Positions 7,451 to 30,460 of a stretch of DNA of 32,986 bases are shown piece after piece. Source of the DNA: Gammaproteobacteria bacterium. Lineage in GTDB: Bacteria > Pseudomonadota > Gammaproteobacteria > Pseudomonadales > Azotimanducaceae. Where the stretch lies: assembly GCA_002726655.1 (NCBI GenBank), contig PBRP01000093.1, positions 1 through 32,986 of the forward strand. The letters run 5' to 3'. Numbering within the stretch: position 1 is the first letter of the stretch; each line of letters opens with the position of its first letter. Position numbers and translations under genes: made by a program. The notes beneath the pieces were generated by a model. The model did not search any database. It was given only the letters and a program-made list of their open reading frames with translations, and had not been told where the DNA came from.

Positions 7451-7678
7451 GGAAGTCGTGGGCGCACCGTCGACCCTGAGGCAGCAAGCCCTGAAAGGGA
7501 TAAGGCAACGTGTACAATCGGAAGCCGCGCAATCTGAGCTGAAGGCGCAGGACTGCTACAGAAAAACACTCAATACCTTCAGACCAGGAATATTTGAATT
7601 GAAATAATTATTGGAATCAAGTGTCAGCGTGAAAAGATGTTTGCTGGCATTTCCCAGTATCAGAATTGCAAGTGCCTG

Positions 7679-8842: not shown

Positions 8843-10340
8843 CGTTTCGGCCCTCCATGCCCAGTTCTCTCAGCATCAATGAAGACACCGCATGACCTGA
8901 TAAATAGGTTGTGTGGAAACCACCATAGAAGATTGAAGCGCCACAAAAGTACAGGCCTTCAATGGGCGATTTCGCATTGAGTTTGTTGGTGATCAGATCC
9001 TTGATATTGACCCCCTCACCAAAAATCTGCCCGCTTGGTGTGCCCAGATACCGCATGTGTGTAATAGGCGTGCTGATTTCCATCTCTTCGATATGTTCAC
9101 GGACGTTTGGGTAAAATCTGTCAAGTAGGTCGAGTGCTTTGTCCGCCAGCTTGAACTTGTTCTCGTGGTATGTTTCGGGCGGCATATCAAGCCAGGAGTC
9201 CATTCCCTGCCCAACCAGCAGGTCGAGGATGCAGGTGCCTTCCTCGCTGTAATCCGGATTATCGATATTATGGCAACCAATAAACCCACCAGAGACTCCT
9301 TCGGCATCGTAGTGACTTCCCACATAAGGATCCTGTTCACTCGTGGGGTCGAGGGCAAAGGTAATACCGTGTTCCAGACCCGCTTCCTGTGCAGAACAGT
9401 TGAGCCCCAGATAGAGGCCAAAAACCGTTGGGCCAACACGAGTTACCTTCAGATCAGAAAACGTCTCTTCAGGTACCTTGTCATCATCAATCAGATCGAT
9501 GTAGGTCCTCATTTTGCTGGCATTTGATAGGACCGATCTTGCAGTGAAACTGCGACCATCGGCCAACTCAACACCCGTTGCATGCCCGTCTTCAACTGCA
9601 ATTTTCGTGACTTCCGCGCCGTACACGACGGTTCCGCCACAGCTTTCAAACTCTTCAAGGAGTGTATTGGAAATCGCCTGCGCCCCACTATTTACATGGT
9701 GCCCGGTATCGACTTCGTTGGCCATTGAAAACATGAGGTAGGGAAGTATGTCAGGTGGAAGCGAGAGTGTGCCCAGATACATGGAATAGATGGATCGAAC
9801 CAGCGGGTGCTTAATGTATTTGTCCATCACTTCGATGGCCGGCCGGGTTCCGATATCGAACAGGAGTGGAAATTTGGTGGAATTGATCTCCCCGCCCAGT
9901 TCATCGTACAAACGATAGAGTTCTTCTGCCATGGCCTCGTTCAATGCCTGGAATTTCAGGATATTGTCTTTTTCTTCCGGGGCGATGGCCGTCAGCATGG
10001 CCAGAAATTTGTCTTTGTAAAACGGAACGGCTATCTCTGGTTGTCCCAATACATTGATAGAAAATATTTCATCCTGCCGAATGAACTTGATCTTGTCGTA
10101 GACATCAAGCTCCTCGAATATTTTCCTGAGCGGTCCTTTTTTTTCATCTGTTCCGATTCCCCACAGTGTGTGCAGACCCACATCGAACTCAAATCGACCC
10201 CGTACAAATGTGGTACCGGCACCACCTGGGATATTGTGCTTTTCAAGCAACAACACCTTCTTATCTGACTTGGCAAGATTGAGCGCCCCAACGAGACCTC
10301 CATTTCCTGCTCCGATTACAATCGAATCAAAACTTTGCAT
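8832..10340 (-). CDS. Phytoene-desaturase/retinol-saturase-like FAD oxidoreductase
   Basis: A 502-residue FAD enzyme of the CrtI/CrtISO/retinol saturase type. The N-terminal dinucleotide site reads VIGAGNGGLVGALNLA with the acidic end of strand 2 at LLLEKHNIPGG, followed by the family segment GRFEFDVGLHTLWG. The C-terminal FAD contact is GLYFCGASIFYGGFHTTYLSGH. Family members add or remove hydrogens at polyene or related double bonds. The partner reductase encoded immediately downstream is unusual for a carotenoid desaturase, and no other carotenoid gene is present, so a saturase or other alkene-reducing role on a lipid or xenobiotic is possible. A GAGGTTAGG ribosome site precedes ATG 10340. 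Substrate unknown. Confidence 0.85.
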   Translation of the reverse strand: MQSFDSIVIGAGNGGLVGALNLAKSDKKVLLLEKHNIPGGAGTTFVRGRFEFDVGLHTLWGIGTDEKKGPLRKIFEELDVYDKIKFIRQDEIFSINVLGQPEIAVPFYKDKFLAMLTAIAPEEKDNILKFQALNEAMAEELYRLYDELGGEINSTKFPLLFDIGTRPAIEVMDKYIKHPLVRSIYSMYLGTLSLPPDILPYLMFSMANEVDTGHHVNSGAQAISNTLLEEFESCGGTVVYGAEVTKIAVEDGHATGVELADGRSFTARSVLSNASKMRTYIDLIDDDKVPEETFSDLKVTRVGPTVFGLYLGLNCSAQEAGLEHGITFALDPTSEQDPYVGSHYDAEGVSGGFIGCHNIDNPDYSEEGTCILDLLVGQGMDSWLDMPPETYHENKFKLADKALDLLDRFYPNVREHIEEMEISTPITHMRYLGTPSGQIFGEGVNIKDLITNKLNAKSPIEGLYFCGASIFYGGFHTTYLSGHAVSSLMLRELGMEGRNDGI

Positions 10341-10693
10341 CCTAACCTCATCCTATTAGGCCGGGTCCGCAGGGTAGAACCGGGAAAACCATGTCCAACT
10401 ATACTATCAATTCATCACCTCTACCGACAGGTGTGGCACCAGCGATATCAACATCGATCATACAGATATCGCCTCTCTTTTTGAAATTGCTGGAGTCAGA
10501 CCTCAGAGCAAACCGACATCGTAAGCACAAACCCAAGAGAGTCGACAATTGACCGAATGCCGGTAAATGTGACGATCAATTTTTGTAGTTCGCCGCCTAG
10601 TGCGCCGAGGAAAACAGATATTCTGCAATACTTGATGACAACTAGGCTGCTGCTTTATGCTCTTTGCGGACATATGACTCTGATCAGGCGCTA
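10341..10693. other. Intergenic region upstream of the flavoprotein operon
   Basis: No convincing gene or RNA seen. It should contain the promoter of the minus-strand flavoprotein operon near 10350-10420 and the end of the broken TolB/TPR gene; I could not pick out a clear promoter or terminator. Confidence 0.5.
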
Positions 10694-12526
10694 CTAAAAA
10701 GGCAGCGGTGGAAACTCCAGCCTGGCAATGGATTCATCGTCCAGACCGGCTTCCCGTAGAATCCTTTCGTATTCTGGATGGGCATAGAATTTGGCCATAA
10801 ATGCTCCTGATGGGTTTCTAAAAAAGATTGATAGAGCGGTGGATTTCTGGACACTCTGTTCAAAGTAGGACAAGGCAAGTTCCACATTTTGCTCTAACAT
10901 TGCTTTTTGGATTACTGCTGTACCGAGTTGATCTGCTGATTCCTGTTGTAGGCTATCCAAAATGGCTTTCACCTGATTCCTGTCACCTTTCATCTGCGCA
11001 ACTATCGCTTCATGCAGGGTGTAGTTTTGCACCGAAAACCATGCCTCCCGACCCCGGTCAAGTTGTGCCTGAACACCATCGACGTCGTCCTGCGCAAGAG
11101 CGAAGTAGGCGATATTCCATCCCACTTTGTAGCCGAACTTCTCCGCCATCCGGTATGCATCACTTGCTTCATCGTGGCGACCAAGAAATGAAAGCGCTAT
11201 TCCTCGATCAAGATGTGAAACAGCGTGGAGAGGGCTTGCCTTTAGTCCCTGGTCAAAAACCTCAATGGCTCGCTCGAATTGAAATAGAGTTACCAACATC
11301 CACCCGTAGTAGTCCAGCAGATCAGGATTGGTCGGATACTGCCGAATCAGGGGGTCGATCTCGTTTATAGCCCGCTGGTAATCTTGATCCACCAAATAGT
11401 AAAGCAAGGCACTTAGAATTCTTGTTTCAACGTGCATGGGATCGATTGCAAGTGCTCTCTCATGGAACCCTCTTGCTTGCGAACTATGCTCATCAGCTAA
11501 GTGCAGTTCTAACCCTATCAGGGTTACATGAACTACAGCCAGCCCTGCAAGCGCATCCACATATTTCGGATCGTGACTGATTGCCTGCTCGTAGAATTAC
11601 ATCGCCTGCTCTAGCTCCCAACGGTCTAAGTGGAATCGACCTAAAAGATAAGCATTGTGGGCATCAAGATTTTCAGTCGATTGTGTAGAAATATCTGAAC
11701 CAAGTATCTCGGTATTCAGTGCCTTTAAGATGTGTTGGGTGATTTCATCCTGCACCTTAAAAATATCCGTTAGCTCTCTATCGTACTGATCTGATCAGAC
11801 GTGTGCACCATCGGCCACGCTATTCAACTGAGCTGCAACGCGAATTTTGTTTCCTGCTTTTCTGACGCTGCCTTCCAGAATGTGCGTCACATCTAACTTC
11901 GCACCTATTTCCCTGATGTCCTGGTTTGCACCTTTGAATTGAAAGGAAGAAGTCCTGGCGATAACTTTCATCTGCGTGTTTCTCACCAGAGCGTTCAGAA
12001 TATCTTCCGAAATACCATCGGAGAAGTATTCCTGCTCAGGATCGCTGCTCATATTGGTGAAAGGGAGCACAGCGATTGAGGGTTCTTCTTCCTCTACAGT
12101 TACAGTCACGTTCTCAACTGATTGCTCTAAAACCTCCGCCGGTTGCTCAAACGGTTCTGGGCTGCGGAGATACAACAACCCTACCGCAACAACCAACATA
12201 CCGATAATGACGTACTCTATCTTGTGGCTCTTACGCAGTGGCTCTTGTTCTTCCCTGGATTGTTCTGTGGAACGGACGATGCCATCAGGAGTAACATCAA
12301 AAAGCCAGGCCAGGATCAGGGCGATGGGAAAACCGATTAGTAGTGCACCAACCAGTGTGGTCTGAAACCAGTCAGGGAAAGAAAACGGGTCTGCGAGAAC
12401 GTCCGACACTTGCACCAGCACCCACGCAGCAACGACATACATCGTGCCGACCCGAAATACGCTTCGGCGTTTGAGTTCTTCCCAGATGCCGCGTGGTTGT
12501 TCTTCAGTCACCACTTTATCTCGCAT
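10694..12526 (-). pseudogene. TolB-like/TPR membrane signalling protein interrupted by two in-frame stops
   Basis: One continuous reading frame runs from ATG 12526 to the stop at 10694 and encodes a typical protein with a CadC/cyclase-like membrane N-terminus, TolB-like domain and TPRs, but two stop codons break it. Residues 1-85 hold WEELKRRSVFRVGTMYVVAAW and two membrane helices, then a third helix near 110-125. A TolB-like domain follows (SIAVLPFTNMSSDPEQEYFSDGI, HILEGSVRKAGNKIRVAAQL). The first stop is TGA at 11797-11795, where the family has Trp (AHVWSDQYDREL). The second is TAA at 11599-11597, where Gln is likely (QAMQFYEQAI). TPR repeats continue to the end. Both are single-base transitions, so the loss looks recent. 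Two separate genes are unlikely because the frame never shifts. Confidence 0.85.
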
Positions 12527-15269: not shown

Positions 15270-15307
15270 TTCCCTTTTTAGTAATACCTGGTCCGAGGGT
15301 GTTCTTA

Positions 15308-16435
15308 GTGCCACTTGAATTTATAGAAGGAAATGAAGCAATCGCACGTGGCGCGGTGAGAGCTGGTTGTGGTTTTTTTGCCGGATACCCCATCACCCCC
15401 GCATCTACCCTTTTGCAGTACATGCTGGATCTTATGCCGAGAAATGACGGCACGGCCATTCAGGCTGAGGATGAAATTGCTTCGATCGGCTTCTGCATTG
15501 GCGCTTCAATGGCTGGTCGAAAAGCCATGACTGCAACGAGTGGGCCGGGCATTAGCCTCTATAGTGAAAACATTGGCCTTGCGATCATTGGAGAAACCCC
15601 CCTGGTGATTGTCAATGTTCAACGGCAGGGTCCTGCTACAGGTTCAGCGACCAAGGGAGCAGAAGGTGATATCCAGTTTACCCGCTGGATAACCTCTGGC
15701 GGTATGCCGATCATTGCCCTTAGTCCGGCAAATGTGGCGGAAGCCTATGAACTAACGGTAAGGGCCTTTAATCTTGCCGAACAATATCGCATTCCTGTGT
15801 TCTTGCTGACGAACAAAGAAATTGGACTTACGCAGGAAACCGTTGATCTGGACAGTGTACGACTTCCAGAGATCATCAATCGAACGAGAGCATCAGCATC
15901 GGAAGCATATAAACCGCATCAGTTTGGCTCGATTGAACAAGTGCCCGTAATTTCTGATTTTGGCGGTGAACATGTCACGCAATTCACAACCTCAACTCAT
16001 GATCAAAATGGGTACCTGACTTCTGACCCTGAAATTGCTCAGAACATGATCGATCATTACATCGCAAAAATCGAAGCAGCAACAGATGAAATTGCCTTGT
16101 ACAGGGAGGATATGCAGGAGGGGGCGGAACTGCTGTTCATCAGCTATGGCATCACGTCCCGCTCAGCATCAGTTGCGGTGAAACAATTGCGAGATGAAGG
16201 TTTTGGAGTTTCTTCCCTGGTTATTCAGAGCCTTTTCCCCGTACCAGAGACCGCCATCAAGGCTGCAATGAAAGGGATCAGGAAAACAATTGTTCCTGAA
16301 ATGAATATGGGACAGTACAAGCTCGAAATTGAACGACTCGCACCAGATGGTATGTCAGTTATCGGTGTCAACAAAATGGATACTACTTTGCTTTCACCTT
16401 CAGAAATTATCGCCCGGGGTGGCTGTCGTGACTGA
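15308..16435 (+). CDS. korA: 2-oxoacid:ferredoxin oxidoreductase, alpha subunit
   Basis: A 375-residue alpha subunit of the pyruvate/2-oxoglutarate:ferredoxin oxidoreductase family. Near the N-terminus EFIEGNEAIARGAVRAGC and GYPITPAST are the family hallmarks; QAEDEIASIGFCIGAS, TSGPGISLYSENIGLA and QRQGPATG follow. It binds the 2-oxoacid and, with beta, thiamine diphosphate, and converts a 2-oxoacid plus CoA to acyl-CoA, CO2 and reduced ferredoxin. GTG 15308 is chosen because a GAGG site lies about nine bases upstream and homologues begin near EFIEGN; GTG 15299 is an in-frame alternative. There is no gamma domain here; it is on the beta subunit. The stop overlaps the beta start by eight bases. 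The 2-oxoglutarate assignment is a guess; pyruvate or branched-chain acids are possible. Confidence 0.88.
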   Translation: MPLEFIEGNEAIARGAVRAGCGFFAGYPITPASTLLQYMLDLMPRNDGTAIQAEDEIASIGFCIGASMAGRKAMTATSGPGISLYSENIGLAIIGETPLVIVNVQRQGPATGSATKGAEGDIQFTRWITSGGMPIIALSPANVAEAYELTVRAFNLAEQYRIPVFLLTNKEIGLTQETVDLDSVRLPEIINRTRASASEAYKPHQFGSIEQVPVISDFGGEHVTQFTTSTHDQNGYLTSDPEIAQNMIDHYIAKIEAATDEIALYREDMQEGAELLFISYGITSRSASVAVKQLRDEGFGVSSLVIQSLFPVPETAIKAAMKGIRKTIVPEMNMGQYKLEIERLAPDGMSVIGVNKMDTTLLSPSEIIARGGCRD

Positions 16436-17756
16436 TCAATACCATGAAACCTATATGACAGACGCTCTGGGTCCCCTTCCTTGTTGCCCAGGATGCGGGC
16501 ATGAACGGATTCTAAAAGACCTGGATAGCGCGCTTACCAAGATGCAAATCGACCCGCGCAAACTGGTCATTGTGACTGATATTGGTTGTATTGGGTTGGC
16601 GGATCGTTACTTCAAGGCCAATTCTTTTCATGGATTACATGGCAGGTCACTTACCTATGCGACCGGATTGAAGCTTGCTAATCCTGAGTTAACGGTTGTT
16701 GTTCTCATGGGCGATGGTGGTTGCGGGATAGGCGGTGCTCATCTGCTGAGTGCCGCACGTCGCAACCTTGATATTACACTAATAATAGCGAACAATTTTA
16801 ACTACGGTATGACCGGTGGCCAGCATTCTGTGACCACGCCCATCGGAGGGCTCACCCCGACGACACCCGGAGGGAATGTTGAGCGTGCAATAGACATTTG
16901 TGCAATCGGTGCTGGTGCGGGTGCCACCTGGGCTTATCGCGGCATCAGCTACGATAAGGATCTGGATGAAAGGATTATCGAAGGCATCAAGCATCCTGGC
17001 TTTTCCATCCTCGATATCTGGGAACTCTGTACTGCGTACTACATGCCCAGAAATGAATACAACAAAAAGGAACTCTATAAGCTGATTGAGACCAGTGGCC
17101 TAAATTCTGGTTTGATAGTTCAATCTGAGCGAGGCGAGTTCGGCGCTATGTACAGAGAAAGCGCTGGAAACCTACCGCCGGCAAAGGACATTTCAGCCCT
17201 GGAACCCGTATTTGGACACAAGTTAAAGGAACAAACGGGCGTGGTAATTGCAGGTAGTGCTGGTGAAAAAATCCGATCCGCTGCCAGTCTTTTTTCAAGA
17301 GCGGGCATTATGTCTAACCTCCATGCCACCCAGAAAGATGACTACCCAATCACTGTGATGACAGGTCATTCGGTGTCCGAAATAAACCTCTCGCCAGTAA
17401 CGATTGAATATACAGCCATCGATTCTCCCGATTACTTCGTGATTGTTTCAGAGGATGGCCTGAAGAAAACAGCAGCTTTGGTAGCAAGTTTGGGGTCCAC
17501 AACACATCTTATTGTAGATGAAGGTTTGCAGATTCCAGATACGGCAGCAACCATTGAACGATTGCCGCTTGTCAGGTCTGCGAAGAAAGCAGGGCAGTTC
17601 ACAATTGGCCTGATTGCACTTGGGGCACTTATCGAACGAAGTGAAATCTACCCAACAGAAGCACTGAGGGAATCCGTCAGAAGGCATCAAAAGCCCGGGA
17701 TAGTTGAGACGAACCTCAGAGCAATTGATCTTGGTTCAGAGCTAGCCGCTGACTAA
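16428..17756 (+). CDS. korB: 2-oxoacid:ferredoxin oxidoreductase, fused beta-gamma subunit
   Basis: 442 residues from GTG 16428. The beta part (1-250) has the four cluster cysteines expected of the family at C20, C23, C54 and C201 (CCPGCGH, DIGCIG, WELCTAYY) and the thiamine diphosphate/Mg motif MGDGGCGIGG with ANNFN at 94-125, then GMTGGQHS. From about residue 264 a second domain begins with GHKLKEQTGVVIAGSAGEK and runs through MTGHSVSEINLSPVTI, which fits the gamma (POR) domain. In bacteria gamma is commonly separate or fused ahead of alpha, so a beta-gamma order is unusual. No ferredoxin-like delta subunit is encoded nearby. It forms an operon with alpha; electrons would leave through a separate ferredoxin. 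Confidence 0.88.
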   Translation: MTDQYHETYMTDALGPLPCCPGCGHERILKDLDSALTKMQIDPRKLVIVTDIGCIGLADRYFKANSFHGLHGRSLTYATGLKLANPELTVVVLMGDGGCGIGGAHLLSAARRNLDITLIIANNFNYGMTGGQHSVTTPIGGLTPTTPGGNVERAIDICAIGAGAGATWAYRGISYDKDLDERIIEGIKHPGFSILDIWELCTAYYMPRNEYNKKELYKLIETSGLNSGLIVQSERGEFGAMYRESAGNLPPAKDISALEPVFGHKLKEQTGVVIAGSAGEKIRSAASLFSRAGIMSNLHATQKDDYPITVMTGHSVSEINLSPVTIEYTAIDSPDYFVIVSEDGLKKTAALVASLGSTTHLIVDEGLQIPDTAATIERLPLVRSAKKAGQFTIGLIALGALIERSEIYPTEALRESVRRHQKPGIVETNLRAIDLGSELAAD

Positions 17757-17875: not shown

Positions 17876-18370
17876 ATGAGCGACGATCTAGGAGCACGTG
17901 TAGGACTGCTGGAGGCGCGCATTCAAGAGCTCGAAGCCATCGAAGGTGTGCGCTCGACAATCCTGTCCTACGCCTTGGCCCATGACCGCGGCCAATCCGA
18001 TAAGGTGGCGGATTTGTTTACAGAACAGGCGCGACTCGACATCGTAGGATACGGCCCGGACCTGGACACCACTATCGAAGGGCGCGAAGGAATCCGCGCC
18101 ATGTACACAGCACTCGATGCGAAATTTGATAACAACCCGCCATTCAAGCATATGGTGACAAACTGTCATGTGACGTTGGAAGGTGAGAGCGCGGTCGCGG
18201 TGACCTATCTGCACGCCTGGGGCGGACCCAAGACTGAAACCGGTCCAGGCGGCGGTCTTTACCATGACCGTCTACGGCACGAATCTGACGGCCAGTGGCG
18301 CTTCGCCCACAAACGAATCATCTCAATATCCACTCAGACCGTGGGCGATTCGATAGCCGATGGTATTTAG
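17876..18370 (+). CDS. SnoaL-like (NTF2-fold) protein
   Basis: 164 residues with the conical alpha+beta NTF2 fold. A predicted coiled-coil N-terminus (LGARVGLLEARIQELEAIEG) leads into helix one, then the family pattern LSYALAHDRGQSDKVADLF, the pocket segment GREGIRAMYTAL, and strands ending in HMVTNCHVTLEG and WRFAHKRI. Such proteins are isomerases, hydrolases, dehydratases or ligand-binding partners in degradation and polyketide pathways. The His-rich pair in HDRG and HMVTN may line the pocket. A GGAGAG ribosome site precedes ATG 17876. It converges with the giant activase gene, with only 16 bases between stops. Its sequence looks richer in GC than the kor genes, which may indicate separate origin. 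Confidence 0.8.
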   Translation: MSDDLGARVGLLEARIQELEAIEGVRSTILSYALAHDRGQSDKVADLFTEQARLDIVGYGPDLDTTIEGREGIRAMYTALDAKFDNNPPFKHMVTNCHVTLEGESAVAVTYLHAWGGPKTETGPGGGLYHDRLRHESDGQWRFAHKRIISISTQTVGDSIADGI

Positions 18371-18386: not shown

Positions 18387-21300
18387 TCACGCTACATCTA
18401 AGCTCAATGTAGGAATACGATTGAGCCTGAATGCAAAACTGTTGATTCTGCGTTCATCAAGTGGTGTTCCATCATCATAAAAAAAGAGGAATGGTATATC
18501 CCTCTGATGACGCAGGATACTCTCTGACACCAGGACGCTGTCGCAACCCCAGGGGCCACACATGACTACGCCATCATAAAAACCCTGCTTCCAGCGCAGT
18601 AAAACACTGCCAATCTGGGATACAGCAGCAGAATTTGTACGAATATCAATCAATTCAGCTGCCTGATCAAGAATTGGCTGTGGTGCCGAGTACGGTAGCC
18701 AAGGGTGGTTTTTCAATGCTTCCGTGTAGATTCGGTCACGAAGCATACGAAAGGTCTGCCTCATCTCCTGCCGCGATTCAGGTGTGGAGGCGCGGCCAAA
18801 CACCTGGTGCGGTTGTGTGTGTGACAGGACTTCCGTCATCTCTCCATTACCATCCACAACCACTCGAATGCCCCTGTCACTCAGGCATTGAAACAAGCCG
18901 CAGTTTGCGAAATCATTGCCTTTGGTCAGACCATCTCCTGACGCAAAAACGGTACGGAAAGATTTGCCTTCACCAAAGGCTCTATCCATATCCTTATACA
19001 TCTGGCTGGCTTCACTAACAATTTCAGTAATTTTCTCCAGCTTCCATTCAATTTTTGTAGTGTCTGTCTCGTCATCGATCGGTGCTTCGATTACTTTGAT
19101 CACCTGCTCGCAGAAGTTATCACGGTATTCTTTCGACTGCCCTCGATACGCTTCGACCGGCAGGTGGTAGTAATATAACTGGTTCATCACATCAAGTGCG
19201 GCCATGCCGGTATAGGTCTGGTAGAACATGGGCATGTTTGCGGAGACTCTAATTGAATCGACAACAACCATGTGGTCAATACCCATTTTTTCAATGCTGA
19301 TCTTGTCCTTGGCAGAATAGATCCCTGCGCGACAATTTCGGGCGGTTGTTTGCATCAATCTTGTTTCTTTCTCGATCGCGTTGTTCTCAAGATAATGACG
19401 GAACGATCCCCATACCAGTTGATAGGACAAACACTCTTTACCGGAGCAATCCTGCTTGCCGATAGTCGCACTTTCCTCTGAAAAAGGAGACGCAGCATCT
19501 GCGTCATACCCTAACGATCTGTAGTTGGCTGCGTACAAGTCACCGAGATAGTTACTTCCGGTCATGAACACATATTTAACATCATCACGGAAAAATCCAC
19601 CTCGCCTGTTTGTGGTGCCAACATACGATACGGCGTTTTCGACATCCGGCAGGTCCAGACTCGAATGATCTGCGTTTGCCTCTGCAATGAACTGCCTGAC
19701 CGATTGCAGGAATGCCTGAATTCGGGTCACATAACCTGCCGCACCGCCATGGCCATCGCTTTCAAGTATCGTATGTGGGTATCCTTCAAGCTGGGATTGC
19801 AGTACGGACTCCATCATTGACGCAGGTCCGCAGCCAAAGGATGAAATTTGCAGAGGGAAAACATCCAGCAGCTGACGAGCTGTATAGGCCGCTCTCATAT
19901 AGCGGTTGGAGTCTGCCCAATACACCTTGATCATGGCTGGTGCATCTGCGCTTACTGGAAAACAGTCCATGGGAATGGCCATGGCACCGTTCTGCCTTAG
20001 CAAGTTAGGAATATTGGCATTAATCGCAGGGTCATGAACGACATGCACTGAACCGCACACCAGGACCATGGGGATATTCCTTTCGCGGCTGTAAGCCATC
20101 GCCTGTTCGCCATACCTCAAAAGGGCATGATCATATTGTTCTTGTGCTGCAGTAGCCCTGGCAACTGCAGTCTCAAGTATCAGGTCATCTACTCCCAAAT
20201 CGGTGATGAGGCAGCGCAAATTCTCAAGGTTGTCCTCGGTGTTCATACCTTCCTGGAACGAGAGTACGGGTCGAATGACACGTACATCCTTGCCTCTCGC
20301 CTTTAGGGACTGCTCGATGATTTCCGGTTCAGCCTGCTCTGTAAGGCAGGTGTCTCCACCTCTGCCACGCGGATCAGCCAGCGTAATAACTTTAGGATAG
20401 AAAAGGATCGGCACATCTGTATCGCAGATTGCATGAGCGATCTTCACCGGTCCACAGGAATCAAAGGAGAAGCACATCTGCTCGCCTCGAGCGAGTGACT
20501 TGGAATTTGATTTAAGGAACTTTACAGAGAACCCGAGTTCACCGATTAATGTGGTGACGAATGGCATCACCCCGGCAAGCGCACCGGTCTGTGGCACAGC
20601 GACAACAGTTCCACCCGGGACATCCTGGATATAGCTCTTGAGGAGTTCTTCCCTTAACTCGAATGGATTTGGCGCATCTTTGTCTAGCTTCGGCATGCTT
20701 TTGGTGGGAACCTCGTACTTTGGACAGGCGCCCCCTGATATTGCAGTTCTTACTTCATCACCGATTTTGATGACCGTTTTCTCAATGGGGCAGAGAATCT
20801 GACAATCCTTGTCGTTGCATTGGAATTCCGAACGTTCAGTAATTTCTGCGTCGAGAGCGGTCGCAATACCGAGAGAAGTCGCGGTCTCCAGTGTAGCCAC
20901 TCCCAGTTGCTCAATAGCGCAAAGACCTATGCCCCAGGCTCCCATGGCTCCGGGGTTTGGTGGGACAAAGATTTCACGTTTGCTCACGGCGGCGAGTGTC
21001 CAGGCAAGGGATGGGTTAGATGCAGGCTTTCCCTGAAAAAAGATCTTCTTGCCAAGCGTTCTTTGTCCCATCACCCGATTGAGGTAATTATGGACCACCG
21101 AATATTGGAAGCCTGCAAAGATATCTGATAGTTCAAATCCTTCCTTTAGCGCTTCAGAACCTGCATCTGCCACGTAGACCGTACACATTTGCCCGAGATT
21201 GGGCGGACGTTTTGCGCTTTCAGCCAGATCAATAAATTCCTGAATATCGTTAACATTATAAAAAGTAGCCTGCTCTTCCAGGAACGATCCTGTACCCGCA

Positions 21301-22670
21301 CTGCAGGCTTTATTCAAATCCGATTCAACAATTCTGCTACCCTTAATGCTCATGAACTTGGCGTCCTGTCCACCAATTTCTATCACTGACAGGTCCTCTC
21401 CATGATCCGGGTCCAGTAGGGTTGCGGCGGTGGCATGGGCGACAATTTCATTCATGACGACGATCTGATCTTCAAGGTCCGGGAACACCGCTCGCAGCAG
21501 CGTAGCGACTGCCTCACGGCCAGAGCCAGTCACGCCGATTGCTCTAATGTCCGGCTTTCCCAGATCGAGGATCGCCCGAATCAGACGCCGGCCAGCATCC
21601 ACGGGATTTCCACGGGTTTGATCGTAAATATCGAGTAATGGCTCATTGGTCTTGATTGAACTAAGAACCGCCTTGGCACCAGTAGAACCAAGGTCTAGAC
21701 CAAGAACCGTTGGCTCGGTCTGCCAATCCGTGGTTGGCGTCTTATCCTCCATCATGGTCACGCGATCCCGCCAATTGCTGGCTGGGTCAAGCACCGTAAA
21801 TCTGGCAGACCTTAAGGAGATCAGATCGGCGGGGTCTTCTGGCAGGGCATCGTCACCGTCCGCTGTTTCCTGACCCGCTGCGATCAGGGCCGCACCAACC
21901 GCTTCATAGGTCAATGCATTTTCAGGCAGTTTTACTTCACGGCCCATGAATTCAGTAAATGCATCTCTGAAGGATTCGATTTGAGTACAGCCACCGATGA
22001 GGTAAACAGCGCCATCCACTTCGTTACGTGATACCAGTGCGCGGGTGTTACGGGCGACTGAGGCAAAATACCCACTAAAAAGGTCTGCCGTGTCCTTACC
22101 CTGATTGGCAAAGTGCGTCATTTCGCTCTTAGCAAAGACTGAACACCGGGCGGTTATGGGAATACTACGACTGGCTGTTTTTGCCAGTTGATCGGCCTCG
22201 TCCACTTCCAGGCCAAATCGTCCGGCGATCTTGCGAATGTTTTCACCCGTACCTGACGAGCACTTGTCGTTTTCAAGATATTGAAAGTGATACTTCTTAC
22301 TTTCCGAACCATCGCCTGACTGTGCTGCGGATCGGGTGAGAACACTGTAACCCCTGGCCCCTACACTGACCAGATTCAGCGTGTCCTCCAGGTCTGAACT
22401 GGAGGAGAGAGCCGCCTCCTGGCAGGTGTCCTCCGGGAGAATCAGAACTGAACCAGTCAGCTCGTCTGCATAGACACCTGTAGCGCCGAGCTGGGCGCAA
22501 GTATGAATAGCATTATCCTGGTACCAGCGTTGAAAGAATTCAAGGGGTGCGCCCTCGTGATCATGCCGTTCCACCTTCTCAATAGTGACATGACCCTGAT
22601 CACCAATCGAAGCGATTGCAAAACAGGCGGTTGCCTTTCCCAGATCACAGCCCGCAACACGGATACCCAT
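18387..22670 (-). CDS. Giant dual activase/2-hydroxyacyl-CoA dehydratase-like reductase fusion
   Basis: About 1427 residues from ATG 22670 ([13 protein letters not shown]; an upstream GTG at 22700 adds ten residues, and numbers here count from it). Domain 1 (11-285) and domain 2 (331-600) are both BadF/BadG/BcrA/BcrD-type activases. Each carries the two cluster cysteines: C147 (CSSGTG) and C186 ([10 protein letters not shown]); C466 ([10 protein letters not shown]) and C506 ([11 protein letters not shown]). Domain 2 has canonical ATP motifs ([19 protein letters not shown]); domain 1 has degenerate ones. A linker holds C628, C633, C637 and C659. A DUF2229-like part (about 690-890, with [13 protein letters not shown]) and an HgdB-like part (about 880-1437, with [13 protein letters not shown] and CGPWGC) follow. 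Family logic: the activase hydrolyses ATP to push one electron to an FeS enzyme. Expected role: ATP-driven reduction or dehydration of a difficult substrate in the cytoplasm. Substrate unknown. Confidence 0.88.
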
Positions 22671-22788
22671 ACCAGTTCCCAGAATATATATTATCATCAC
22701 AGAATGAATGAAGGATTGGGCAAAAGCCAGCTAATTTTGCGGGCTGCCTGGCAACGCGAATTTCTCAGGATCGGGCATTAGCACTCCT

Positions 22789-22855: not shown

Positions 22856-22906
22856 GCGCAAAACATATGCGGCTGCTGTTTGTATCGCAATTTCGAGGAG
22901 AAACAT

Positions 22907-23863
22907 ATGTCGGGGAAGTTAGAGGGCAAAGTCGCAATCATCACTGGAAGCGGACGAGGCGTGGGACGCTGCACCGCACTACTAATGGCCAAAGAAGGTG
23001 CCAAAGTAGTAATTGCAGACAATGGAAGCCAGGTAGATGGATCCGGTGCCAGCAGCGGTCCTGCGGAAGAGGTTGTGGCGCAAATCTCTGCTGATGGAGG
23101 CACCGCAATTGCAATTGCCTGCGATGTCTCTAACTGGGACGATGCAAAAGCCATGATCGAAGCTCCGATCAAGAAATGGGGAAAGCTCGATATTCTGGTG
23201 AATAACGCTGGCAATTTTCGAGTGAACACCATCGCAAGCGTTACCCGCGCTGACTGGAACGCTCTGAGGCGAGTGCACATGGATGGCATGATGTACACAA
23301 GCCACTTTGCTGCACTGCATTGGAAAGAGCGGGGTGAATATGGCCGCTTGATAAATTTCACTTCAGATTCTTTCATGTCTGGAGTTCCAGACACGTTCGC
23401 ATACGCAGCAGCCAAGGGTGCAGTCGTCGGTATGACCAGAGCGATCGCGAATGCGATGGTGAACTACAATGTTACTGCCAACTGCCTTACCCAGTCTTCG
23501 ATGACTCGAATGGCTGACTCCTACTATCCGGACGGCGGAATCAAACCCAGTGAGGTCGCGCCTCCGGATCAAAGACCCGACACCGTTGCCCCACTGATTG
23601 TTTACCTCGCTTCACCCGAGGCGACCGGGATTAGTGGCCGCATATTTGGTTCATACGGCTACAAGTATATCCGTTGGAGCGAACCTTGCCATGAGGTTGA
23701 TCTGAGAAGTCGCGACAATGAACCCTGGGATCTGGACTATCTGTTTTCGCGCTTCTCCGAGACACTTGGGAAAGACCTGGAGTTGAAAAAAGACCTTCAA
23801 TGGCCGATGGAAAGCCTTGATCAGCAGTCGGGGACGGCAGGCAGTGACAATCTGAAACAATGA
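22907..23863 (+). CDS. Short-chain dehydrogenase/reductase (SDR), multifunctional-enzyme-like
   Basis: 318 residues from ATG 22907, chosen because GAGGAG lies six bases upstream; an earlier ATG at 22880 has no ribosome site. Rossmann motif TGSGRGVGRCTA near residue 15, NNAGN near 102, catalytic Ser in INFTSDSF and Tyr-x-x-x-Lys in FAYAAAKGA near 165. The insert ADNGSQVDGSGASSG after strand 2 is typical of SDRs related to the 3-hydroxyacyl-CoA dehydrogenase part of peroxisomal multifunctional enzyme 2. A C-terminal extension of about 70 residues (IRWSEPCHEVDL onward) follows the core. It likely oxidises a hydroxyacyl-CoA or alicyclic alcohol with NAD(H). A 9-base repeat AAACATATG occurs at 22861 and again at the start codon. 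Confidence 0.87.
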   Translation: MSGKLEGKVAIITGSGRGVGRCTALLMAKEGAKVVIADNGSQVDGSGASSGPAEEVVAQISADGGTAIAIACDVSNWDDAKAMIEAPIKKWGKLDILVNNAGNFRVNTIASVTRADWNALRRVHMDGMMYTSHFAALHWKERGEYGRLINFTSDSFMSGVPDTFAYAAAKGAVVGMTRAIANAMVNYNVTANCLTQSSMTRMADSYYPDGGIKPSEVAPPDQRPDTVAPLIVYLASPEATGISGRIFGSYGYKYIRWSEPCHEVDLRSRDNEPWDLDYLFSRFSETLGKDLELKKDLQWPMESLDQQSGTAGSDNLKQ

Positions 23864-26069: not shown

Positions 26070-28367
26070 TTATTGGTCCAGGAACAAACGGATATCCCAG
26101 ATATCCTCACTCTCCGATTTTCCGAAGTCGCCCTGTAGAATCAGACCACAACCAGGACATATGTATTCCTTGTAGACGATCTTGTCATCAATGAACAACT
26201 CAGGGTCAATGGGCGACAGCCCCACTTCCTCTACTGGGGTTTCCTTTTTCAGACATCCGGTCTTAAAGTTCTTTTCCGCGTCCTGAATCCGTACCCTGCA
26301 TTTTCGGCAAACATAACAAGCACCATCTGAGGATGTGCTGACCACAAGACCTTCCGACACGGGGACTTCATCCGCTGTTTCGGTTACGGTGGCACGCTCC
26401 CCCTGTAAGCCCACAGCATCGGAAAGTCGTTGTTGACGCATCTGATCCCTCAGCGCCATGGTTTCGCTGATATCCACTTCGCCCTTGTCATCGATACACA
26501 CACCACAGCGCGCCCTTGCCCAATCGCTGGTAATATAGCTTTCCTCTATATCCTGACGCACCATTTCAGGGACCCGCTCAAGCGGGTCTCCATAACCGGA
26601 GGCGGCAGTCCAGGCCAATGACCATACGTCGCCACTTTGCTGAAGTACCTCGCTGGCCTTGGGTGCAATATTGATATGTTCACCGCCAAGGTCTGAAAGA
26701 TCCCCCGGCATCACCGCATCCATGGCAAAGTTCTCCCTGACATTGGCATCCTTCACCATCACGAAACGGGTCCTGGAGGTTGGATCCCCACCAAACAATC
26801 CATTTCCAGGAATGATGGTGTGGCCGCTGCATGTGTGATGCTCGAGTGATTCAGTATCATTGAGGACGTAGGCTATTTCCGCACTATTACCACCCCTGTA
26901 CTTACCAACGCCCCCGGAGTTCGGAATCTCTTTGCGCCACAGGTAGATCAGGGGGTAAAAAATCTCATTGTCCTCGACGTTGGGCATTGTGCTCTGCAGA
27001 TCCCAGGGCCAGCCCCCCGTATTGACGCCATCCCTCCATGACAGAGCACCAAGGGCGCCACCGACAGGGTCCGCAAGAAATGACGTATAAGGGCTGCCAT
27101 GCTGATCGATCCCGGATATGGCATCAATCGGGTAATTCAAGGCACCCATGCAACTTTGCACCTCTTCGCGCAGCGCCGGATCCGATGAGGTATATAGCAT
27201 CCTCGAAATCGCTAGACCGGCTAGTCCAATGGTCTGAATCGTGACCGTGGGTGGCGCAGATATGACACCCGCTGGATACAAAGCGTTAGTCAGGGTGCCC
27301 GGAGTTGGATTGAAGTCCATATGCCGATACGCACCTTCAATTACAAACATCTGATCAAACAGCATCTGTGCACAGATCATCGATGCGACGGCACCTTTCC
27401 AGCCAATAGCAGTACAATTGATGCCACCAATTTGCGGCGCCGTGCCCTCGTTATCAAAAATAAGTCTGTTATCTTTCTTTGTTAGACGAACAACATTGCG
27501 GTAGGCATTGCGATCACCTTCACGACTCAGTTCAATCCACGATTCCTCACACCACTGACCATCGGGTATGGTTGCCAGCTTCTCCAGAAACGCTACTTCC
27601 GAGTTGTCCTGCAGTTTTTTCATTACACTCTTGATCTTCACCGGCCCGTACTTGCCGATAAGTTCCTGCATTCTCTCCCGCGCGACATTACATGCGGTCG
27701 TCTGGGCCCGAAGATCCAGGGCTACAAGGTCCGGCATTCTAGAGCGCCGGATGTACTCGTCCTCAAGATCCTTGCGCATAAGCCCCTGCTCAACTATTTT
27801 CAAAGGCGGGATACATCCAGCTTCCCAGAATACATCCTTGGACATAGGGTTGAAGGCCCCGGGGGTTGTACCTCCTAGATCCCACTGGTGCAGGCTGTTG
27901 GCAAACCAGCAGAATAGTTCACCCTCCCAGAACAAGGGAGCAAACAGACAAACGTCAGCCTGGTGGATCGCCCCAATCCATGGGTCGTTGGTAAGAAAAA
28001 TGTCTCCATCCCTGATTCCTGGATTCTCAGACCTGTTCTCGAGAGTCCATTTGATGGCAGAGCTGGCAACTGAAGAGAGATACTGGAGAAAGGGACCGAA
28101 AAAGACAAAGTCGCCCTGCTCGTCCATCAGGCAGGGATTGAAGTCGTGGCCAAAGGCAGCGATGGGAGAACCCGAAATACGCACCAGCGTATTACCCTGT
28201 TCAACATTGAGGTTCCACATTGCATAGCGGATGACTTCAAATGTAATGGGATCAAGATCTTCTTCTACCACATCATGAAATTTGATACTCGGATCAACCT
28301 TTAGCGGTTCTGAGGGGATATAAGGATATGTTTTACCATCCCACTTGATCTCTGCTTCACTGACCAT
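26070..28367 (-). CDS. Hydantoinase B/carboxylase-type subunit with C-terminal acetone-carboxylase-gamma-like domain
   Basis: 765 residues. The HyuB domain (about 30-570) has DPITFEVIRYAMWNLNVEQG, then GDIFLTNDPWIGAIHQADV and HQWDLGGTTPGAFN, which match the metal-dependent hydantoinase B/oxoprolinase and acetone/acetophenone carboxylase families. Unusually, after a linker (about 575-680) a small cysteine-rich domain follows: C684, C687, C690, C705 and a C-P-G-C pair at 737 and 740 in YKEYICPGCGLILQ. That tail resembles the separate gamma subunit of acetone carboxylase, so this looks like an alpha-gamma fusion. With HyuA it would activate a substrate with ATP for carboxylation or hydrolysis. 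It starts two bases after the HyuA stop; the HyuA end supplies its GGAGGG ribosome site. Confidence 0.85.
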   Translation of the reverse strand: MVSEAEIKWDGKTYPYIPSEPLKVDPSIKFHDVVEEDLDPITFEVIRYAMWNLNVEQGNTLVRISGSPIAAFGHDFNPCLMDEQGDFVFFGPFLQYLSSVASSAIKWTLENRSENPGIRDGDIFLTNDPWIGAIHQADVCLFAPLFWEGELFCWFANSLHQWDLGGTTPGAFNPMSKDVFWEAGCIPPLKIVEQGLMRKDLEDEYIRRSRMPDLVALDLRAQTTACNVARERMQELIGKYGPVKIKSVMKKLQDNSEVAFLEKLATIPDGQWCEESWIELSREGDRNAYRNVVRLTKKDNRLIFDNEGTAPQIGGINCTAIGWKGAVASMICAQMLFDQMFVIEGAYRHMDFNPTPGTLTNALYPAGVISAPPTVTIQTIGLAGLAISRMLYTSSDPALREEVQSCMGALNYPIDAISGIDQHGSPYTSFLADPVGGALGALSWRDGVNTGGWPWDLQSTMPNVEDNEIFYPLIYLWRKEIPNSGGVGKYRGGNSAEIAYVLNDTESLEHHTCSGHTIIPGNGLFGGDPTSRTRFVMVKDANVRENFAMDAVMPGDLSDLGGEHINIAPKASEVLQQSGDVWSLAWTAASGYGDPLERVPEMVRQDIEESYITSDWARARCGVCIDDKGEVDISETMALRDQMRQQRLSDAVGLQGERATVTETADEVPVSEGLVVSTSSDGACYVCRKCRVRIQDAEKNFKTGCLKKETPVEEVGLSPIDPELFIDDKIVYKEYICPGCGLILQGDFGKSESEDIWDIRLFLDQ

Positions 28368-28369
28368 GG

Positions 28370-30460
28370 CTACAGACCCTCCAATTCAATAATAAAATTT
28401 CCAGACCGATCGGTTTTGCCACTTGAACCGGGGTGAAGCACAACCGTTGTTTCCGGGTACTCGATCACAGCAGGCCCGCTAACAGCATAATCGACTGACA
28501 AATCCTGGCCACTATAGATGGGCGTTTCCTGTTTTCCCCCAAGGTCACGCCAGTAGATCTCCCTGTGACCAGACAGAGGTTCCTCGTTAGTATCCGTACA
28601 GGTGGGAACTTTTGGCTTAGTCATTTTGCCGATAGCATTAGTTTTGAAGAGGCCTATCTCAACGCCCGCATCCCGGTATGCAGATCCCTTGCCATAAAAA
28701 CTCTCATATATCTCTTCATAGTGAACCAGAACCTGTTCCAGGTCGCTCTCGTCCAGATATCCATTTGGTACAGGCACCGCAAGCTGGTGAATCTGCATCT
28801 TGTATTTGATTTCGAAGAACCTCTGAAATTCTATATCAGCGGCTTCAAAACCGTCTTCCTCTAGTTGACGCAACCCCTCGGATTCCAGCTCAGAGAAGGT
28901 GCTATTAATATGTTCCAAGTCAAATGGCTGCGATAACAGGTCGCTTTTCTCATAAATATGTAACACATCGGCACACAGTGTGCCAAAGGCTGACCAGGTC
29001 GAACTGATCGTACCCATCGGTATGATGATCCGCTTAATTCCCAATTCCTTTGCATACTGGCAGGCATGTGTCGGTCCGGCTCCGCCATAAGCAATAACCA
29101 CGAACTCCCGTGGGTCAAGTCCACGCTGAAGAGTCATCTGCCGGATCAATTCCGCCATCTTGGTCTCCGCAATCTGGGCAGCACCGGCGGCCAACGCCTC
29201 GACTTCCATGTCCATTTTTTCAGCCAGGACTTGCAGGGCCTCAATGGACTTGCTCTTATCGAGGAGCATTTTGCCACCAAGGAAATTGTCTGGGTTCAGA
29301 ATTCCCAGCACCAGGTTGGCATCCGTGATCGTTGGCTGCACTCCCTTGCCATAACAGGCCGGTCCCGGGTCTGCACCAGCGCTCTGCGGGCCAACTTTCA
29401 GGGTGCCACTAAACTCTTCAACCCACAATATTGAGCCACCACCACTGCCGATAGATTCCACATCCAGGCGTGGCATGGAAAAAGCATACTGGTTAATGAT
29501 CGTCTCTGAAGCACTTAGGGGTTCTCCATCACAGATGATCCCTGCTTCAAAACTGGTGCCCCCCATGTCAGCAATAATCGCGTTCTTGTATCCCAGGGAA
29601 TCGCAGAGAAAAGCGCTGCCTGTCACTCCGGCGGCGGGTCCGGAACTGATTGTGTAGAGTGGTTTGCTAACAACTTCCCTGGAGGGAACAACACCACCGT
29701 TAGCCTGTAGCACCAGTATCGGCTTTTTATAGCCAAGCTCAGCCGAGTTCTGCTCTATCTTCTCAACATACTTCTTCATGGTGGGTCCAATGAAGCAGTT
29801 AATAGCAGTACCGACGGCGCGCTCGTATTCACCTCTCTTGGAGATCAGTTCATGCGAACAACTCACGAACATGCCCGGAGCTATTTCGCCAACCATCTGT
29901 TTGAGCGCAAGTTCATGCCGTGGATTTACAATTGACCACAACAGGCTGATAGCAATAGCCTCAACTCCCTGCTCCACAAGAAGCCGAATAGCCTGCTCTG
30001 CTTCTGCCTCGTTTAGAGGCAGATAAACTTCCCCTTTCCAATCGACTCTTTCACTGACTTCCAGCACCAGCTTTCGCGGAATAATCGGGTCTGGCTTCTG
30101 GTGCCTTGATACATGCAGCAGTTTTTCTATCGGCAGACCAACAGAGCGCCCGGCGGATTTCATGATGAACAAACTATCCTTGTGCCCGCGAGTTGTGAGC
30201 ATCCCGGTCTTCGCTCCCTTCATCTGAATGAGAGCGTTGGTACCAACCGTAGTCCCCAGAAACAGATGCTCCATATTTTGCATCAGCGCATCTGGATCGA
30301 TACCTATTTTTCCAGCACAGGCCTCAAGGGCATTGAATAAGCCCACGGAGTAATCATCCGGTGTAGAGGGACACTTGGCGATAATGATGTTCCCACTTTC
30401 ATCGATGACCGTACAATCGGTGAAGGTCCCGCCAGTATCAATGCCGCAGAAATATTTCAT
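28370..30460 (-). CDS. Hydantoinase A/carboxylase-type ATP-binding subunit
   Basis: 696 residues. The N-terminal acetate/sugar-kinase-like phosphate loop reads GIDTGGTFTDCTVI (residues 6-19). Further family signatures are HLFLGTTVGTNALIQMKGAK near 87, ANGGVVPSREV near 255, ADMGGTSFEAGII near 296, and VIAYGGAGPTHACQYAKELG near 447. The family includes N-methylhydantoinase A, 5-oxoprolinase and the beta subunits of acetone and acetophenone carboxylase, all of which use ATP to phosphorylate the substrate carbonyl. Length is close to the usual 680-720. It lies in the middle of a five-gene minus-strand operon, 38 bases after the preceding gene and two bases before HyuB. Ketone carboxylation is favoured by the gamma-like domain on HyuB, but hydantoin-like substrates are not excluded. 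Confidence 0.88.
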   Translation of the reverse strand: MKYFCGIDTGGTFTDCTVIDESGNIIIAKCPSTPDDYSVGLFNALEACAGKIGIDPDALMQNMEHLFLGTTVGTNALIQMKGAKTGMLTTRGHKDSLFIMKSAGRSVGLPIEKLLHVSRHQKPDPIIPRKLVLEVSERVDWKGEVYLPLNEAEAEQAIRLLVEQGVEAIAISLLWSIVNPRHELALKQMVGEIAPGMFVSCSHELISKRGEYERAVGTAINCFIGPTMKKYVEKIEQNSAELGYKKPILVLQANGGVVPSREVVSKPLYTISSGPAAGVTGSAFLCDSLGYKNAIIADMGGTSFEAGIICDGEPLSASETIINQYAFSMPRLDVESIGSGGGSILWVEEFSGTLKVGPQSAGADPGPACYGKGVQPTITDANLVLGILNPDNFLGGKMLLDKSKSIEALQVLAEKMDMEVEALAAGAAQIAETKMAELIRQMTLQRGLDPREFVVIAYGGAGPTHACQYAKELGIKRIIIPMGTISSTWSAFGTLCADVLHIYEKSDLLSQPFDLEHINSTFSELESEGLRQLEEDGFEAADIEFQRFFEIKYKMQIHQLAVPVPNGYLDESDLEQVLVHYEEIYESFYGKGSAYRDAGVEIGLFKTNAIGKMTKPKVPTCTDTNEEPLSGHREIYWRDLGGKQETPIYSGQDLSVDYAVSGPAVIEYPETTVVLHPGSSGKTDRSGNFIIELEGL

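Follow-up and report, generated by a model that had tools for sequence, protein, structure and literature searches.

A putative single-chain ATP-driven reductase related to PlsA and Ger, with an asymmetric pair of activase domains, from a gammaproteobacterial genome

The plasmalogen synthase PlsA and its relative Ger belong to the benzoyl-CoA reductase/2-hydroxyacyl-CoA dehydratase superfamily. The genes plsA and plsR are reported to convert diacyl lipids to plasmalogens, with orthologs in Listeria, many anaerobes and some groups of Proteobacteria (PMC9702350). A single gene of 4,248–4,920 bp is described as taking the place of plsA-plsR in Enterococcus, Lactococcus and Bifidobacterium. Its expression in E. 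coli is reported to lead to plasmalogens, AlphaFold3 models of the single-gene PlsA are labelled Act1, Act2, Red1 and Red2, and exposure to air greatly lowered the yield of three out of four tested PlsA enzymes (PMC12838417). A PlsA homolog of Thermotoga maritima has been proposed as the maker of ether bonds (PMC8788747). Forms with two activation domains are reported as validated Ger enzymes, a 30% identity cut-off was used for Ger, and PlsA and Ger are described as not separable by sequence alone (PMC13274423; similarly PMC11868695). The single-chain Act1-Act2-Red1-Red2 architecture is thus already described for PlsA and is not new. Here, a gene of this architecture is described from a window of 32,986 nucleotides, the whole stretch of DNA that was analysed (Gammaproteobacteria bacterium, family Azotimanducaceae; assembly GCA_002726655.1, contig PBRP01000093.1, positions 1–32,986). 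The gene is located at 18387–22670 on the minus strand. Its first activase domain keeps the cysteines of the cluster yet matches neither ATP-binding motif, whereas the second domain matches both motifs. This combination looks new; no report of a degenerate Act1 was found among the open-licence papers searched, and no claim of its absence from print is made.

The gene is a single frame of 1427 residues with an ATG start at 22670. This confirms the one frame of the first-pass annotation of this DNA, in which the strand was unstated. An alternative GTG start at 22700 would give 1437 residues. The ATG is likely the start, because the homologous frame in a sister genome (G1146) also has exactly 1427 residues from the equivalent ATG. 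This homolog, L003, is located on contig PBRQ01000084.1 of Gammaproteobacteria bacterium NP948, a metagenome-assembled genome (MAG) independent of that of the window (G000). The cysteines of the first-pass annotation are real and their spacings of 39 and 40 are right, but its residue numbers count from the GTG and are therefore 10 too high. In the numbering used here, the cysteines are C137 and C176 in Act1, C456 and C496 in Act2 and C618, C623, C627 and C649 in the linker.

The window protein and L003 are 90% identical across all 1427 residues. The ratio of nonsynonymous to synonymous substitution (dN/dS) between the two genes is 0.077 overall, 0.064 in Act1 and 0.035 in Act2, the domain values being rough since dS of both activase domains is above 1 (about 1.1 in Act1). 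These ratios show purifying selection on the gene, which appears strong on Act1. Along 18390–22670 the dS is uneven, with about 1.1–1.3 in Act1 and Act2 and about 0.4 in Red1 and Red2; recombination of one half of the gene may be the cause.

Five regions are distinguished, all on the minus strand. Act1 (residues 1–290, 21801–22670) and Act2 (residues 316–600, 20871–21725) are activase domains. The following linker (residues 601–690, 20601–20870) contains its four conserved cysteines within 20724–20819 and could form an extra metal site. Red1 (residues 690–1012, 19635–20603) is a reductase-like module of the DUF2229 type with the conserved residues C739, C775 and C947. Red2 (residues 1030–1427, 18390–19583) is a second reductase-like module with the conserved residues C1080, C1113 and C1376. 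Profile searches agree with the first part of this layout. Pfam BcrAD_BadFG matches in two stretches (E 2.3e-37, 129.4 bits, cut-off 31.5), TIGR00241 scores 163.8 bits (above its cut-off of 125.4) and Pfam DUF2229 matches with an E-value of 2.3e-27. The NCBIfam equivalog models of BcrA, BcrD and BzdQ score only 70.8, 42.4 and 41.7 bits, against cut-offs of 578, 312.85 and 380.2, respectively.

The C-terminal part was previously called HgdB-like. Pfam HGD-D remains below its cut-off (19.5 bits versus 28.4), and the resemblance of the Red modules to this family is weak and limited to the C-terminal motif. Red1 and Red2, on the other hand, align with each other (hhalign E 4.9e-8, probability 94.8, 282 columns). 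The C-terminal ~400 residues are thus a second copy of the DUF2229-type module. Seven of eleven Red2 members match DUF2229 (up to E 1); the Red2 of the window protein is not among them. The two activase domains, the four-cysteine linker and the DUF2229 module of the earlier layout are therefore retained, whereas its last part is replaced by a homolog of Red1. Profile searches of the PDB with Red1 and Red2 gave nothing better than E 0.04. The best match of Red1 is BzdN (E 0.051, at the C-terminal motif) and the matches of Red2 are unrelated proteins. With hhalign against single sequences of YjiM and proteins like benzoyl-CoA reductase (BCR), the best E-value is 0.0066 over 31 columns; against a three-sequence profile it is 2.5e-4 for Red1 (55 columns) and 0.014 for Red2 (58 columns). 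By sequence, the kinship to characterised reductase subunits is weak, and it rests mainly on the published description of PlsA.

The ATP-binding motifs of activases are known from the actin/hexokinase/Hsp70 (ASKHA) fold. Act2 has both of them, DLGSTGAK (21672–21695) and IGGQDAK (21357–21377). In Act1, the phosphate-1 position (residues 9–16, 22623–22646) reads DLGKATAC, compared with the pattern DxGSTxxK, and the phosphate-2 position (residues 104–110, 22341–22361) reads GARGYSV, compared with the pattern GG[Q/E]DxK. The main alignment comprises 27 sequences including the window protein, and 20 of them include Red2. Act2 matches both patterns in all 27 sequences. Act1 matches both in 18 sequences (five PlsA-type proteins and 13 two-gene relatives) and neither in the other nine, which are the window protein, L003, L062, L063, L064, L028, L029, L026 and L075. 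The first seven of these form the window clade, with an ultrafast bootstrap of 96 in the tree of the 27 sequences (969 columns), and in all seven the Act1 motifs are unmatched and the Act2 motifs matched. The same pattern is present in L013, a partial eighth member of the clade outside the 27 sequences. L026 and L075 are long branches outside the clade, and in Act1 of L026 the D, G and K of the first motif remain. The Act2 motifs vary in the wider family, as the long-family relatives L005 (GGTDVK) and L045 (GGCDVK) have an altered second motif in Act2.

A control scan covered 125 distinct activase-domain rows from all fetched loci. Both motifs are intact in 70 rows and lost in 15, the second is lost in four and the first in two. 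The remaining 34 are unscorable for gaps and include Act1 of the window protein and of most members of its clade, where the profile aligned only the second half. Thirteen of the 15 double-loss domains are not part of long-chain proteins of this family, and most are next to an activase gene whose motifs are intact. NCBIfam assigns the members of one of these pairs, L058, to BcrA (772.9 bits, cut-off 578) and BcrD (466.4 bits, cut-off 312.85). A pair of an intact and a degenerate activase is accordingly an existing solution in benzoyl-CoA reductase, with BcrA intact, BcrD degenerate and one pair named. The proposal that asymmetric activases are unique to the window clade was rejected, since BcrD-type proteins have lost the same motifs. 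For the same reason, ATP motifs in both halves of the dimer are no strict requirement.

An activase tree was calculated from 78 domains (177 columns, window included). Window-type Act1 forms its own clade of eight (bootstrap 99) apart from BcrD, a placement taken from a tree in which the L003 protein (L124) stands for the window. Because of this separation the loss of the motifs in Act1 looks independent of that in BcrD. Act2 of the window protein belongs to one clade of 24 Act2 domains from PlsA-type, two-gene and window-type proteins (ultrafast bootstrap 90), which stands apart from BcrA, BcrD and YjiL. One row of this clade, L005, is labelled Act1 only because the gene fragment is truncated.

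The four activase cysteines, C137 (22260–22262), C176 (22143–22145), C456 (21303–21305) and C496 (21183–21185), and the three cysteines of Red1 are present in 27 of 27 aligned sequences. All four linker cysteines are found in 25 of them; L026 lacks the set and L075 lacks one. The three cysteines of Red2 are present in 19 of the 20 sequences that include this module, again with the exception of L026. In alignments with activators of solved structure, C456 corresponds to Cys127 and C176 to Cys166 of the activator 1HUX. Both cysteines of Act2 align with those of 4EHT and both cysteines of Act1 with those of MbdQ (9gai_D). The aligned cysteines of these three structures are presumably the ligands of the bridging cluster. 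No second BcrAD_BadFG gene was found in the host genome, which is 91% complete. Split relatives of the long family break after Red1 (Fusobacterium and many others) or before Red1 (L074, L005), and among the relatives looked at none is split between Act1 and Act2. Because of the aligned cysteines, the single activase gene and the position of the splits, the natural reading seems to be that Act1 and Act2 pair within one chain and serve the acceptor of that same chain. The pseudo-dimer of the first-pass annotation is supported to this extent, but the pair is asymmetric.

In the host's own family the full-length gene is present in one of 61 genomes and any match in three, one of which (G035) lies on a 3.1-kb contig that cuts the gene. 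Two genus-mates, G008 and G041, gave no match to the reductase. In the order, the window-type gene is present in one of 390 genomes and any match in 15. In a sample of the class, the profile has matches in 33 of 369 genomes (E ≤0.001), many of them via separate activase genes of the benzoyl-CoA reductase type; the full-length single-gene matches nearest the window type are those of G000, G555, G667 and G657. A TGA inside the profile match of G667 leaves its 1471-residue frame unbroken. Besides L003, five further single-gene members of the window clade were found (L062, L063, L064, L028 and L029). In family f38, from another class of the same phylum, all four genomes have a match, two of them on cut contigs.

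Long relatives in Listeria, Haliovirga and Collinsella are annotated as 2-hydroxyacyl-CoA dehydratase or acyl-CoA dehydratase activase, and in Fusobacterium the same content is split into genes of 975 and 404 residues. In L074 (G783, 7439–10805) the split lies between Act2 and Red1, giving frames of 724 and 419 residues, and the phosphate-2 motif of Act2 is altered. A tblastn search of plasmid records gave matches in 33, the long relatives of Listeria, Haliovirga and Collinsella among them. L026 (3650–7498), on a plasmid of Paraclostridium bifermentans, is a shorter relative without the linker and Red2 cysteines and with unmatched Act1 ATP motifs. Scans of viral contigs gave three loci, of which L095 alone was used. 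L095 (2985–4379, IMGVR_UViG_3300027917_002365), listed as viral and with a SU10-type adaptor gene, contains the 5' part of an Act1-Act2 gene and is possibly a chimeric contig. L096 (5131–7212, IMGVR_UViG_3300028835_002564), on a contig with a phage integrase, has a frame of 693 residues in which a Red-like module precedes a single activase domain, an order different from Act1-Act2-Red1-Red2.

The preferred reading is a self-contained, ATP-driven, low-potential reductase related to PlsA and Ger, with an asymmetric activase pair and a lipid ester as substrate. It is based on the domain order and similar length shared with PlsA and with the annotated homologs of Listeria, Haliovirga and Collinsella, the clade of Act2, the conserved cysteines and an asymmetry of Act1 like that of BcrA and BcrD. 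As a whole this statement is tentative and falls a little short of an even call. The architecture and the asymmetric activase pair are held with good confidence, while the case for the lipid ester, made by analogy with PlsA and Ger, is about evenly balanced. Act1 and Act2 would pair within the chain as a pseudo-dimer, with one [4Fe-4S] cluster bound by C137, C176, C456 and C496, and reduced ferredoxin would load this cluster. Because the ATP motifs of Act1 are lost, ATP would act at Act2 only, and Act1 would be a half without an ATP site that supplies ligands of the cluster. Electrons would then pass, perhaps via the four-cysteine site of the linker, to the three-cysteine centres of Red1 and Red2, where the substrate would be reduced. 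The substrate would, as first choice, be a membrane glycerolipid reduced at its carboxylic ester, a reaction that leads to the vinyl ether in PlsA and to the alkyl ether in Ger. A wider proposal is a single-ATPase reductase in which a dead and a live activase half share one cluster with one ATP per electron step, in a host with oxygen-respiration genes and within a relocating three-gene group, performing a reduction new to the superfamily. In this full form it is rather unlikely.

Several observations weigh against the preferred reading. The loss of the motifs is partial in some members of the window clade: D, G and K of the first Act1 motif persist in L064, and GGE of the second in L062, L063, L028 and L029. 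The Act1 domains of window-type and PlsA-type proteins do not group together, a result that may stem from long-branch attraction or an independent origin. The AlphaFold2 models are unusable, with a mean pLDDT of 34.3 for residues 1–601 (three sequences), too low to read the geometry of the cysteines, and 33.1 for residues 612–1427 (two sequences). The host has four matches to the haem-copper oxidase family and probably respires oxygen, while the tested PlsA enzymes are mostly air-sensitive. The reductase gene goes with two further genes, for a short-chain dehydrogenase/reductase (SDR) and a SnoaL-like protein, an association that is no less fitting for a small-molecule pathway than for membrane lipids. 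In the tree of 27 sequences the window protein is outside the PlsA-type clade, and it ends without the long tail that the Listeria protein has at its C-terminus. The Listeria protein compared here is presumably lmo0788, judged from its neighbours. lmo0788 has been described as similar to benzoyl-CoA reductase subunits (PMC2679221). The identity of the window protein to this homolog, which is not a biochemically proven PlsA, is 23–26% and below the 30% cut-off used for Ger. Since neither clade nor identity places it there, the window protein is not filed as PlsA and is best regarded as an activase and DUF2229 family member related to PlsA and Ger.

The strongest alternative has the same machine turn over a small molecule, with a CoA thioester as the likeliest substrate, in a reaction of the 2-hydroxyacyl-CoA dehydratase or enoyl/aryl-CoA reductase type, within a short pathway that includes the SDR and the SnoaL-like protein. 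In the window the SnoaL-like gene (17876–18370, plus strand), the reductase gene (minus strand) and the SDR gene (22880–23863, plus strand, ATG at 22910) follow each other, with 76–85% nucleotide identity to L003. The order in L003 is enoyl-CoA hydratase, reductase, SDR, SnoaL and APH-like, so that both genomes have the three genes grouped, each at a site of its own. The SDR and its counterpart in the sister genome share 88% identity, and no other match exceeds 41% among the matches listed from the five genomes searched; the two copies of the SnoaL-like protein share 79%. Contig C59 of the window's genome (L123) has the same flanks as L003, but the three genes are absent between them. Homology of the flanks stops at 3104 and resumes at 9579 in L003; the corresponding positions in L123 are 12930 and 13095. 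An AMP-binding (acyl-CoA synthetase-like) gene, 90% identical in the two genomes, adjoins this site. The comparison suggests that the three genes moved, or were gained or lost, as a group and were rearranged, and either state could be ancestral. A small substrate would also agree with the known activities of BCR, HAD, DCCP and TudS, which act on CoA esters or other small molecules (PMC11971306, a paper whose Discussion names neither PlsA nor Ger). The phylogeny of Act2, however, places the window protein with PlsA-type activases and not with those of the BcrA, BcrD or YjiL type. The genes for the CoA ligase and the hydratase are part of the site, not of the three-gene group. Furthermore, neither the SDR nor the SnoaL gene was found next to the reductase in L028, L029, L062, L063 and L064 (tblastn to E 1e-3, loci of 7.6–19.5 kb). 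No evident pathway neighbours were seen by eye in these five members, some of which are on short contigs, and this fits an enzyme with a ubiquitous substrate. Action on a small molecule is a serious possibility, although on balance doubtful.

The protein could also be a reductive activator or repair enzyme for the cofactor of another protein, like the RACE corrinoid activases, and not a substrate reductase. ATP-dependent reductive activases of corrinoids are described (PMC10418091), the Red modules are divergent and their HGD-D match is below the cut-off. Against this, the chain itself contains two conserved Red modules of three cysteines each, its homolog PlsA is reported to turn over a substrate of its own, and by eye no gene of a partner protein recurs beside the reductase gene in the clade. 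An activator is therefore quite improbable.

For BCR and its relatives, double-cubane as well as single [4Fe-4S] clusters are reported (PMC11971306). If the Red modules held double-cubane [8Fe-9S] clusters, the window protein would be a fused double-cubane cluster protein. YjiM, which is called a double-cubane-cluster reductase and has the activase YjiL, is a distant relative, and the window protein and L003 have extra cysteines five to six residues before conserved ones (C733/C739, C1075/C1080 and C1371/C1376). Across the family, however, only three cysteines per module are conserved, which favours single clusters. Red1 and Red2 align with YjiM, alone or in the three-sequence profile, at the C-terminal motif only. 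The NCBIfam double_cubane model is not among the matches up to E 1, whereas it scores YjiM with 519.7 bits. On the counts of conserved cysteines and the result of this model, double-cubane clusters are disfavoured and very improbable.

A joining of two genes through an assembly or sequencing error, which the first-pass annotation had named as fatal to its claim, has next to no probability: the source is a MAG of 161 contigs, but the independent MAG has the same 1427-residue frame at 90% identity with a dN/dS of 0.077, and five more members of the window clade are single genes.

Upstream, the plus strand encodes the alpha subunit (15299–16435) and a fused beta-gamma subunit (about 16428–17756, with the C-terminal POR (gamma) domain fused to beta) of a 2-oxoacid:ferredoxin oxidoreductase, which could possibly supply reduced ferredoxin. 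As a conserved partner this KorAB was rejected. The adjacent copy is genome-specific, the other genomes searched have only paralogs of at most 35% identity and none is located beside the gene in the other loci of the clade. Elsewhere in the window, on the minus strand, 10694–12526 contains a membrane-anchored N-terminal frame (11795–12526) and a C-terminal frame (10694–11560), which by eye look like pieces of one interrupted gene. Two large genes are present at 26070–30460 (minus strand). The first (26070–28367) matches the models of acetophenone carboxylase delta and caprolactamase beta below their cut-offs, and the second looks by eye like its ATPase partner. Contig C59 of the same genome has a run of OYE-like, CoA-transferase, luciferase-like, thiolase-like, AMP-binding and enoyl-CoA hydratase genes, most of them named by eye.

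If one half of the activase pair is a live and the other a dead ATPase, the holding of the cluster would be separated from the coupling of ATP to electron transfer, two roles that are hard to part in homodimeric activases. A single protein would then serve to test whether one ATP per electron is sufficient. A lipid ester as substrate would extend ether-lipid synthesis of the anaerobic type to a bacterium with genes for oxygen respiration. In that case the protein would also add a diverged sequence that could help to distinguish PlsA from Ger, a distinction described as not yet possible by sequence (PMC13274423). With a small molecule as substrate, the grouping with SDR and SnoaL would point to an unknown pathway.

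Among the known systems, PlsA/PlsR is closest in layout. The window protein shares the order Act1-Act2-Red1-Red2 and a similar length with its single-gene form, which is found in Enterococcus, Lactococcus and Bifidobacterium, whereas Clostridium perfringens has PlsA and PlsR as two genes. The cysteines of the activase domains, linker and Red modules are common to the window protein and the PlsA-type homologs of Listeria, Acetoanaerobium, Fusobacterium, Haliovirga and Collinsella, and its Act2 falls in one clade with theirs. It differs from them in the unmatched ATP motifs of Act1 and in the linkage of its gene to those of the SDR and the SnoaL-like protein. Ger, known from Desulfatibacillum and Thermotoga and compared by description only, is PlsA-like with two activation domains (PMC13274423). 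The two-gene relatives (Act1-Act2-Red1 plus Red2) have the same modules, and the same cysteines where the sequence is included, but Red2 is a separate gene and the ATP motifs of Act1 are intact in 13 of 13. YjiM-YjiL likewise combines an activase with a distantly related, double-cubane-cluster-containing reductase; these are separate genes, YjiM has more cysteines and its similarity to the Red modules is detectable only at the C-terminal motif. Class I benzoyl-CoA reductase, BcrABCD, is driven by ferredoxin and ATP (PMC11971306). In L058, the pair examined, one activase is intact in the motifs (BcrA) and one degenerate (BcrD), as in the window protein. Its activases are separate genes, however, and BcrD is in a different clade from window-type Act1. 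By analogy, the window protein appears to resemble PlsA in its architecture and BcrA/BcrD in its asymmetry.

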